From the NCBI GenBank assembly GCA_001604325.1, contig LVBF01000001.1, positions 1 through 34,646 of the forward strand: 34,646 nucleotides of DNA, in the 5' to 3' direction. Positions 18,743 through 21,923 of this stretch are shown one piece after another. The notes beneath the pieces are model-generated. The model was not told the DNA's origin. It did not search any database and worked only from the letters and a program-made list of their open reading frames with translations. The translations under genes and the position numbers were made by a program. Source of the stretch: Spirochaetales bacterium Spiro_04. Its GTDB lineage: Bacteria > Spirochaetota > Spirochaetia > Sphaerochaetales > Sphaerochaetaceae. Position 1 is the stretch's first letter. The number at the start of each line of letters is the position of its first letter.

Positions 18743-19828
18743 TTACCCAAAATCATACAGTTTTTTCTCTTCTGCATAGAGGTGATAAGAGAGATGTGCA
18801 TCCCGTTGCAGCCGTCCGATCAGGATGAACGGTGGCAGATCAAGCGTTGCTGAAAACCGCCGGATGCTCTCCAACGAAAAATCTCCGGCGTGGACAAATT
18901 GAGTATACGAGACGGCGTTGATCAGTACATTCGACGCGTATCGATCAGCGTCCCACTCCCCTCTATCGTCCAAGGATTCATAATCGATGAGTCTGTCGTT
19001 CATGTCGTTGTTGATGATATGTCCGATTTCATGGAAAAACGTAAACCAAAAAATGTCGGCAAACCGCCGTCTATTGGTCATGACCAAACTCAGGGTAGCA
19101 TCTGCATGCTTCTGTATAACCCCTTGTACTGGTGCCCCTTTGAAGTACCTGACGATTGAGAAACGGATCCCGCACTCACCGAGATGCTCCTTGAGAGCTA
19201 ATTCAATCTCGTCAGCCTCTTTGAACATGAGTTTCTTAAACTCTGGTATTTTGCGTTTCAGCGCGTTGATGTCCAACACGGGGGCAACCTGTTGCCCAGC
19301 GGTAATCAACTCACTCATCCTCAGCCACGTGAACAACACATATGGCTCGGTGTGAGGAGCAGTTGCCAAGCGATACGCCCCTGCTCGGGCCATATCTGGG
19401 ATTCTTACAAGATTACTGAGATTCAACAATCGTCGTAGTTCAATCACCAGAAATGAATCAAACGCCTGCCGATCCAAGAGCCCAAGACTCTTCAAATAGT
19501 CGATAATGACATGAATCTTCCGCACAATAGCAAGCTCATCTTGTGAGATGTTGTTCATCTCTTTTATTTCTGAGACTTCCATATCGTAATTTGCCTGTAA
19601 ATTAATCCAAAACCCAGAGCGAATGCCCAAGGCATATTCAAGCTTTTTGGCAAATCCAACTGATATTGCTTTCTGCCCGCGTATGACCTTACTCACATGT
19701 GTTTCGCTGACATCGGTTCGTATTGCCAGCTCCTTCTGGCTCATCTGTCTTTCATCCAGAATCTCTTTTATGGTCTCTCCCGGGTGAATGATGAATTCAC
19801 GGGATAATCCATTCAATTTTGGTGCCAT
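18743..19828 (-). CDS. HigA-type XRE antitoxin fused to ImmA/IrrE-family metallopeptidase domain
   Basis: N-terminal HTH (HPGETIKEILDERQMSQKELAIRTDVSETHVSKVIRGQKAIS) and C-terminal HExxH peptidase motif (FFHEIGHIINND ... EWDADRYASN). Confidence 0.9.
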   Translation of the reverse strand: MAPKLNGLSREFIIHPGETIKEILDERQMSQKELAIRTDVSETHVSKVIRGQKAISVGFAKKLEYALGIRSGFWINLQANYDMEVSEIKEMNNISQDELAIVRKIHVIIDYLKSLGLLDRQAFDSFLVIELRRLLNLSNLVRIPDMARAGAYRLATAPHTEPYVLFTWLRMSELITAGQQVAPVLDINALKRKIPEFKKLMFKEADEIELALKEHLGECGIRFSIVRYFKGAPVQGVIQKHADATLSLVMTNRRRFADIFWFTFFHEIGHIINNDMNDRLIDYESLDDRGEWDADRYASNVLINAVSYTQFVHAGDFSLESIRRFSATLDLPPFILIGRLQRDAHLSYHLYAEEKKLYDFG

Positions 19829-20144
19829 GATAGTCCACTACCCCTTCTATTGTTATTGTCTTACATTTTCCTAATGAAACGGAATCGAGCTGTTCAACTC
19901 CGGGTTTGACGATAAGGCGAATATTCCCCGTCACGCTGATTCCGTACCTTCCTTTAAGATTTGCGGCCAGTTGATGTGGCTTTCCCAATCCGAGACTGAG
20001 AAAATCGAGAAACGTATCGGCTGCCCGTAATTGGTCAAAGCGCCTTTTCACCGCTTTGGCCATATCCATACCTCTTTTCTTCCCCATCAAGCCAAAGTCC
20101 ATGAAATATCTGCTCACTGCCTTGTTGGCATACTCGATTTCCAC
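19797..20144 (-). CDS. HigB/RelE-type toxin-like protein (GTG start)
   Basis: 115 aa; MEIEYANKAVSRYF...KRRFDQLRAADTFLDFLSLGLGKPHQLAANLKGRYGISVTGNIRLIVKP, HigB-like; overlaps the antitoxin ORF by 32 nt. Confidence 0.8.
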   Translation of the reverse strand: MEIEYANKAVSRYFMDFGLMGKKRGMDMAKAVKRRFDQLRAADTFLDFLSLGLGKPHQLAANLKGRYGISVTGNIRLIVKPGVEQLDSVSLGKCKTITIEGVVDYHGTKIEWIIP

Positions 20145-20196: not shown

Positions 20197-20339
20197 CAAT
20201 CCTATTACATTCTTTTGAATCATGCAAGCAGAATCTCGAACAGGTCGAGCTCAGACGTACGCACCGATAGTCCTGAACGTACAATCCGAGATGAAAGATG
20301 TCGTGAGTTGGGTGCTGATTTGAACGCATCGCACCAGAA

Positions 20340-20379
20340 AAGAAAAACCCCCAGGGAAAAGGAGGTTAAACCCTGGGGG
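20340..20379 (-). terminator. Rho-independent terminator (minus strand)
   Basis: Minus strand CCCCCAGGG - TTTAACCTCCTTTT - CCCTGGGGG followed by TTTTTCTTTTC. Confidence 0.85.
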
Positions 20380-20394
20380 AACAAAAGGAGGTTA
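20357..20394 (-). repeat. Duplicated 12-mer AAAAGGAGGTTA (plus strand; TAACCTCCTTTT on the transcript)
   Basis: Copies at 20357-20368 (terminator loop) and 20383-20394 (just 5' of the terminator in the transcript). Confidence 0.9.
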
Positions 20395-20459
20395 GAAAAA
20401 TCCGATTTCGTTGCCGGCCAACCTATGGAAGGCAGCATGTCGTTCTCTTTCTGAATCAG

Positions 20460-20488
20460 ACAGTACCGAAACGAGGAAAAAACGTCAA
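20460..20488 (-). promoter_or_regulatory. Candidate promoter of the sRNA (TTGACG-N17-TACTGT)
   Basis: Minus strand TTGACG at 20483-20488, 17-bp spacer, TACTGT at 20460-20465. Confidence 0.5.
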
Positions 20489-20582: not shown

Positions 20583-21923
20583 TCAATCGAAGTCAAAATT
20601 CTTCATCGAGAGCGGCTGGCGGGTGTTCTCCAGCACGTCCCGCCACAACGCCCCTTCCAAATCCACGTGGTTGCGCTTGGACACCGCCACATTGATGGGC
20701 AGGTGGATGAACCGGTTGTGCAGCTGCCCGATGAGCAGCTGGGTCTTTCCCGCCATCGCCGCATGCACCGCATGGGCGCCCAGGCGTGCGCAGTAGATTG
20801 AATCGTAGGAGTCGGCCGGTGCACTGCGGATGATGTAGGAGGGGTCGATGTACTTCACGTTCGCCTCGATGCCCTCTCTCTTGAAGTATGCGCTGATCTG
20901 TTCCTTGAGGAAGACCCCGATGTCGTGGAACTTGATGTTGCCCGAAGCATCGGTCTCGGTGCTCTTGGGCAGCAGGTCCTGCCCCGCCCCCTCGCTGACC
21001 AGCACGACGGCGTGTCCACGGTCGAGGATCCGGCGTCGAAGGTGTTCCAAGAGCCCGTTGGGTCCCTCCAAGTCGAAGGGGTTCTCCGGGATCAAGCAGA
21101 AGTTCACATCACTCTGGGCCAACGAGGTGTTGGCGGCGATGAAGCCGGACTCACGGCCCATGACCTTCACCAGACCGATACCGTGGATTGAGTTCCTCGC
21201 CTCGACGTGGGCACCCCGGACCACCGGGACGGCCATCTGCACCGCGGTGTCGACCCCGAAGGAGGATTGGATCAGGGAGAGGTCGTTGTCGACGGTCTTG
21301 GGGATCCCGATGACCGCGATCTTCAATCCCCGCTTCTTGATCTCCTCAGAGATATCATAGGCGCCGCGCAGCGTCCCATCCCCCCCGATGGTCACGAGGA
21401 TGTTGATGTTCATCTTCATCAGCGAGTCGACGATCTCCTCGACCTGCTTGCCGCCGCCGCGTGCCGAGCCGAGGATCGTGCCGCCCTTCTCCTGGATGTC
21501 GTCCACCAGATCCGGGTCGAGCGGGATGACCGGCCACGGGCTGTTCTCCAACAGCCCCTGGTAGCCGTACTGGATCCCGCTGATCCGCCTGACTCCGTAG
21601 CGATACCAGAAGCAGCGCACCACCGCCCTGATGACGTTGTTCAAACCGGGACAGATGCCGCCGCAGGTACAGATGGCCGCATGGACATGCGGGGGGTTGA
21701 AGTAGATCTTCTCCCGCGGTCCGGCAAGCTCGAGCGTCTCCTCGTGGCGCGGGATCGGGTGCCCGTTCTCATCGATGTCGGTGTCGATGCCAAAGAGGAT
21801 GTGGTCGTCATCGCTGACGTAGGCGGCCTGTCCATCGTTCTGCGTCGTGCTCATCAGGATCGGGTTGGCGATCTTCGCCTCCCCGAGGCTGGCAATGGTG
21901 AAGTCCATCTTCTCACTGTTCAT
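20583..21923 (-). CDS. pfkA: 6-phosphofructokinase, plant/trypanosome-like long form, probably ATP-dependent
   Basis: GPREKIYFNPPHVHAAICTCGGICPGLNNVIRAV, GGDGTLRGAYDI, GIPKTVDNDL, MGRESGFIA. Confidence 0.93.
   Translation of the reverse strand: MNSEKMDFTIASLGEAKIANPILMSTTQNDGQAAYVSDDDHILFGIDTDIDENGHPIPRHEETLELAGPREKIYFNPPHVHAAICTCGGICPGLNNVIRAVVRCFWYRYGVRRISGIQYGYQGLLENSPWPVIPLDPDLVDDIQEKGGTILGSARGGGKQVEEIVDSLMKMNINILVTIGGDGTLRGAYDISEEIKKRGLKIAVIGIPKTVDNDLSLIQSSFGVDTAVQMAVPVVRGAHVEARNSIHGIGLVKVMGRESGFIAANTSLAQSDVNFCLIPENPFDLEGPNGLLEHLRRRILDRGHAVVLVSEGAGQDLLPKSTETDASGNIKFHDIGVFLKEQISAYFKREGIEANVKYIDPSYIIRSAPADSYDSIYCARLGAHAVHAAMAGKTQLLIGQLHNRFIHLPINVAVSKRNHVDLEGALWRDVLENTRQPLSMKNFDFD

Follow-up and report, generated by a model that had tools for sequence, protein, structure and literature searches.

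The minus strand of contig LVBF01000001.1 from Spirochaetales bacterium Spiro_04 contains, between pfkA and a TA-like gene pair, a stretch for which a first-pass annotation proposed a promoter, an intrinsic terminator, and an orphan small RNA of about 115 nt. This raises the question of whether the stretch is a gene in its own right and, if so, what its RNA would do. The window analysed here, a stretch of 34,646 nucleotides, carries both proposed signals. The sigma70-like promoter (TTGACG-N17-TACTGT) lies on the minus strand at 20488-20460, with the -35 hexamer TTGACG at 20483..20488, the -10 hexamer TACTGT at 20460..20465, and a 17-bp spacer between them, and the terminator has the 9-bp perfect stem ascribed to it. 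The evidence from this single sequence is weak, since the promoter matches the consensus at 8 of 12 positions, which is under the threshold of the scanner, and a scan of the 4-kb region found seven terminator-like sites against 3.2 expected; by consensus alone, neither element is exceptional. The predicted promoter and terminator are raised above chance by comparison across genomes, and a conserved small RNA gene at this site is very probably real.

The RNA stretch is present in 24 of the 26 genomes of the same genus, Sphaerochaeta (23 matches of at least 87 bits and one truncated where its contig stops; the best match after these scores 26 bits), and the gene is single-copy per genome in the genus. 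In an alignment of 23–24 same-genus sequences, mean identity is 0.71 over the 40 bp upstream, 0.93 in the -35 hexamer, 0.65 in the spacer, 0.91 in the -10 hexamer (23 sequences for both hexamers), and 0.61 over the next seven bases; it then rises to 1.00 in the first 14 transcribed bases, the linker, and the terminator loop, and is 0.41 downstream. Such a profile is the expected footprint of a promoter plus its RNA, and not of a passive 3′ UTR. The first-pass annotation had proposed checking relatives for loss of the promoter and terminator, and the check found both conserved. The predicted RNA, of about 112 nt (20341..20452, minus strand), starts at A20452, where conservation sets in sharply at AGAAAGAG, and ends inside the T tail, at 20341 give or take a few bases; a like fold is found in 23 genus members. 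The idea of a discrete RNA gene is thus retained, with its 5′ end corrected from near 20453 to 20452 and its length from about 115 to about 112 nt. As had been claimed, no credible ORF lies between the promoter and the terminator, and no ORF is conserved among genus members; a small ORF considered as a candidate was rejected.

The predicted transcript begins with an invariant 5′ element, AGAAAGAGAACGAC (20439..20452, minus strand; 14 of 14 columns invariant), the first 7–8 bases of which pair, in the consensus fold, with UUUUU(U)CU immediately 5′ of the linker; alignment and folds place this 3′ partner, UUUUUCU, at 20394..20400 on the minus strand. Between the two lies a variable internal hairpin region (20401..20438, minus strand) with covarying apical pairs, three of the four showing double changes. 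This region contains the GTTG-GCCGG-CAAC hairpin, which had been correctly recognised and which turns out to be the least conserved part of the RNA. The single-stranded linker that follows, AACCUCCUUUUGUU (20380..20393, minus strand), had also been described; it is among the most conserved parts, with 14 of 14 positions invariant in the genus and its CCUCC kept across families in sequence comparison. In the thermodynamic model, the unpaired probability of the linker is 0.58 in the copy of the window and 0.48–0.98 in the genus. The terminator consists of the 5′ arm CCCCCAGGG (20371..20379), the 14-nt loop UUUAACCUCCUUUU (20357..20370; 14 of 14 positions invariant, unpaired probability 0.96), the 3′ arm CCCTGGGGG (20348..20356), and the T tail TTTTTCTTTTC (20337..20347), all on the minus strand, the arms being placed by covariation and the tail by its sequence and the terminator scan.

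What the first-pass annotation overlooked is that the linker carries an anti-Shine-Dalgarno (anti-SD) sequence that is repeated in the terminator loop. Seed 1, ACCUCCUUUU, occupies 20392-20383 within the linker, and seed 2, again ACCUCCUUUU, occupies 20366-20357 within the loop, both on the minus strand, so that the predicted RNA would present nearly the 3′ tail of 16S rRNA twice. The 16S tail GGCTGGATCACCTCCTTT was confirmed by pattern search in seven of eight class genomes, and the pattern is absent from the draft genome of the window itself.

RNAalifold, applied to 23 sequences, yields a 5′ domain closed by the pairing of AGAAAGAG with UUUUUUCU, followed by the unpaired linker and the terminator; the domain encloses a small hairpin in which double changes occur. 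Folding each of the 23 genus members singly gives this arrangement every time, with both seeds outside helices in the minimum-energy structure. The consensus pairs are formed at 98.9% in register, against at most 65% when the columns are slid by 1–3 positions. Over 54 diverse copies, double changes affect 46 cells of the terminator stem, where shuffles give 8.6; 95% of its cells are paired, and its covariation score is 0.383, whereas slid controls reach 0.140 at most. The 5′ helix (AGAAAGA-UUUUUUCU) never varies among copies, and for this reason covariation is silent on it, arguing neither for nor against the modelled pairing.

The core of the RNA extends well outside the genus. A covariance model of the core matches, at E <= 0.001, 152 of 395 sampled genomes of the class Spirochaetia in 52 of 133 genera, usually with one copy, and a second model found 79 in-class genomes and three weak out-of-class matches among 393 phylum genomes. 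The out-of-class matches (G410, G463, and G438) retain no more than a CCUCC in either the terminator loop or the linker and were not counted as family members. The copies of family f24 (L090, L318-L321) have both seeds and are probably from Treponema, given a nearby TD-1 RNA. In many other families, seed 1 lies within a small hairpin (CAUC-GACCUCCUUUU-GAUG) and the terminator-loop seed is retained; the upstream part of the RNA differs from lineage to lineage. In several families, weak matches show the terminator-loop seed only; they could be paralogues or separate RNAs, or else copies that have degenerated. At L093, L094, L096, L089, L091, L326, and L327, additional copies, or versions consisting of the terminator alone, were observed with the loop UUU(A)CCUCCUUU, and some genomes contain 2–4 core matches; these findings suggest that Spirochaetia have a broader family of terminators carrying an anti-SD sequence in the loop. 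L330 (at about 1970-2065) contains two tandem hairpins, each with CCUCC in its loop, with a T run after the second. In a search of named genomes, the double-motif pattern also matched non-spirochaetes; the matches inspected there are without stem and T tail, look like repeats or chance occurrences, and were set aside. Outside Sphaerochaetaceae, TGTAAC(C/T) or TGTTAC occurs about 50–65 bases upstream of the core, at a near-fixed distance, in nearly every tested copy (including L068-L087, L090, L318, L321, and L324), and GGTTT or GTTTA often follows some 22 bases later. This element was counted at 27 of 47 loci, where shuffles would give 3.6, was found in none of the tested Sphaerochaetaceae copies, and is possibly a regulator site or another type of promoter.

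The conserved upstream neighbour of the RNA is pfkA (phosphofructokinase; 20583..21923, minus strand; PF00365, E = 2.3e-63). A co-oriented pfkA lies upstream within 3 kb at 31 of 53 loci from nine families, a convergent pgi lies downstream at 20 of 53 loci from 11 families, and 17 of 53 have both, counts that are lower bounds, as several loci end at contig ends or are weak matches. This pfkA–RNA–pgi neighbourhood, like the class-wide spread, had escaped the first-pass annotation. In the window, pgi is about 10 kb from the RNA, and the TA-like pair and other genes intervene. Directly downstream of the RNA lies the pair itself (18743-20144, minus strand), made up of a small toxin-like ORF of 115 aa, which has no match in Pfam, and a 361-aa HTH protein (PF01381); in many relatives, pgi directly follows the RNA.

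The frequency of a same-strand pfkA upstream (31 of the 53 loci) fits another explanation, namely that the RNA is merely the tail of the pfkA mRNA, its 3′ UTR with the terminator, serving as a stability element or being processed into a small RNA, and that the promoter is incidental. Transcripts of pfkA probably do end here, because the scan found no minus-strand terminator-like site from the pfkA stop (20583) down to the promoter of the RNA, and the double use of the terminator that had been suggested at the outset may well occur. However, the promoter hexamers are kept while the spacer drifts, and invariance starts about 7 nt past the -10 hexamer. The core also persists at L067, L074, L075, and L086, from several families, despite an adjacent upstream gene on the opposite strand, an arrangement that excludes pfkA read-through as the source of the RNA at these loci and requires a dedicated promoter there. 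It is likewise present at L065, L077, L108, and the probable Treponema locus L090, where pfkA was not found adjacent. An origin solely in the pfkA 3′ UTR is accordingly unlikely, and the conserved promoter and the divergent upstream genes favour the independent RNA from a dedicated promoter that had been proposed originally.

The remaining explanations concern what the conserved sequence does. An in-frame ATG...TAA in most genus members could encode a tiny 16-aa protein, usually MLLHPLGRLATKSDFF, but the start is TTG, CTG, or AAG in near-identical sequences, L001 (the window), L002, L021, L022, L023, and L024 have a disrupted frame, and the region is missing from other families; such a protein is highly improbable. 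Still less credible is the notion that the AAAAGGAGGTTA copies are ribosome binding sites of plus-strand genes: the motif on the plus strand is a textbook SD sequence, but it is followed by neither a start codon nor an ORF conserved on that strand, and the T tails, the stem covariation, and the promoter all indicate the minus strand. Somewhat more weight, though still little, is due to a decoy, in which the RNA would mimic the 16S tail to titrate a protein recognising the 3′ end of 16S rRNA (S1 or Era, for example) or would act globally on initiation. The closeness of the seed to the 16S tail, its duplication, and the scarcity of perfect mRNA complements in the genus are in keeping with a decoy, whereas known small RNAs of like layout pair at ribosome binding sites, and no protein partner is indicated.

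The reading that we hold to be likely is that this small RNA, about 112 nt long, is independent and acts in trans, having its own promoter and terminator and silencing mRNAs through its anti-SD seeds. Conservation, structure, synteny, the absence of coding potential, and the near-identity of the seeds to the 16S tail are computational results; expression, mechanism, and target set are what we infer from them. The RNA would be transcribed from its own sigma-70-type promoter and would end at its own intrinsic terminator. Its 5′ domain would fold shut, leaving two 14-nt segments open, the linker and the terminator loop, each presenting ACCUCCUUUU, which is nearly the 16S rRNA 3′ end. Either seed could then pair with the SD sequence of chosen mRNAs and block ribosome binding, and the duplication of the seed may provide redundancy or two-site binding. 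This action would not need Hfq, and the RNA is probably Hfq-independent. A profile search, which a very divergent Hfq could escape, detected Hfq in only one of 26 genus genomes; the sole match (G004:C20:2187-2375, 95.6 bits) is in one draft genome, where contamination or a rare gain is possible.

The usual site of the gene between pfkA and pgi suggests a role in carbon or sugar control. An exact 12-mer search of the genome of the window and of G002 found the extended complement AAAAGGAGGTTA only at the RNA locus itself, which implies that there is no large class of perfectly matched targets and that pairing would involve 7–10 nt; hardly any other copy of the exact 12-mer occurs in the genus, and AAAAGGAGGT ahead of start codons is rare, near the control level. 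The exact 12-mer and strong-SD searches gave few sites and no target set, and no target emerged as conserved genus-wide. A gene for an ABC sugar-binding protein in G018 has the SD sequence UAAAAGGAGGUUAC, of which its orthologues keep AAGGAGGTT, making it a weak lead as a candidate target. Among the Sphaerochaeta genes with the strongest SD sequence (AAAGGAGGTT; L287-L306), read by eye, sugar or organic-acid transporter-like, UspA-like, and GntR-type regulator genes recur. The recurring sugar-binding ABC, UspA-like, and GntR-type genes may serve as a lead to targets and no more, because highly expressed transporters tend to have strong SD sequences anyway. A bolder proposal, that this is an ancient single-copy RNA, kept through much of Spirochaetia next to the upper-glycolysis genes, whose double mimicry of the 16S tail makes it a general Hfq-independent regulator of translation initiation, coupling sugar flux to the initiation of many mRNAs, is speculative and unlikely.

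No published description of the RNA was found in the open-access literature. Annotated small RNAs number six distinct ones in spirochaetes, compared with 345 in Proteobacteria (table, PMC9029176). A class-wide RNA with a clear seed, fold, and synteny would open the study of small RNAs where Hfq is mostly undetectable by profile, as in this genus, and cultivable Sphaerochaeta make the small RNA directly testable. At the gathering threshold, Rfam 15 has no match in the window, and in 13 related loci there was none at the RNA locus, the only match being TD-1, elsewhere in L090. The best sub-threshold Rfam match of two Sphaerochaeta copies is LhrC (RF00616), at 33.3 and 30.9 bits; these scores are far under the gathering score of 110 bits, and LhrC was not among the Rfam hits of a copy from another family. 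Membership in LhrC was rejected on that score, and LhrC was retained as an analogue.

LhrC1-5 of Listeria resemble the Sphaerochaeta RNA in length (about 111 nt) and in having redundant CU-rich seeds in a single-stranded linker and a terminator loop, with GGUUUACUCC-CUUUUCC in LhrC where the Sphaerochaeta RNA has GGUUUAACCUCCUUUUCCC; LhrC acts on lapB without Hfq (PMC4132741). In contrast to the two ACCUCCUUUU seeds in one copy at pfkA, LhrC has three UCCC-type seeds and is multicopy and LisRK-controlled. NfeR1/alpha-r14 ("cuckoo") of Rhizobiales, of about 115 nt, has redundant ultraconserved anti-SD motifs in open regions together with variable stems, and pairs at translation initiation regions of targets that include periplasmic transporter proteins (PMC10746234). 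This alphaproteobacterial RNA has three hairpins with CCUCCUCCC in each, unlike the two segments with ACCUCCUUUU here, and no Rfam similarity connects them. AbcR1/AbcR2 (alpha-r15), which silence transport and metabolic mRNAs (PMC8844928), have two anti-SD seeds, one of them between stem-loops. However, their seeds are unlike each other, CUCCUCCC in the 5′ hairpin loop and UUCCCCUC between the stem-loops, with none described in the terminator loop, and they belong to another phylum, with no sequence relation or Rfam match found here. The C-rich Gram-positive small RNAs RsaE, FsrA, and RNAIII, cited in PMC4132741 for UCCC-type seeds that cover SD sequences, differ in having shorter C-rich seeds, and no Rfam similarity to them was found here. 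In LhrC, NfeR1, and AbcR1/2, redundant CU-rich or anti-SD seeds have been found experimentally to block translation initiation (PMC4132741, PMC10746234, and PMC8844928). By analogy, the Sphaerochaeta RNA most likely works like LhrC, NfeR1, and AbcR while belonging to none of them; it would form a new family of a functional type that is already known, the anti-SD-seed silencing small RNAs, to which we infer that it belongs by function, and its layout looks like another independent arrival at the redundant anti-SD seeds of LhrC and NfeR1.
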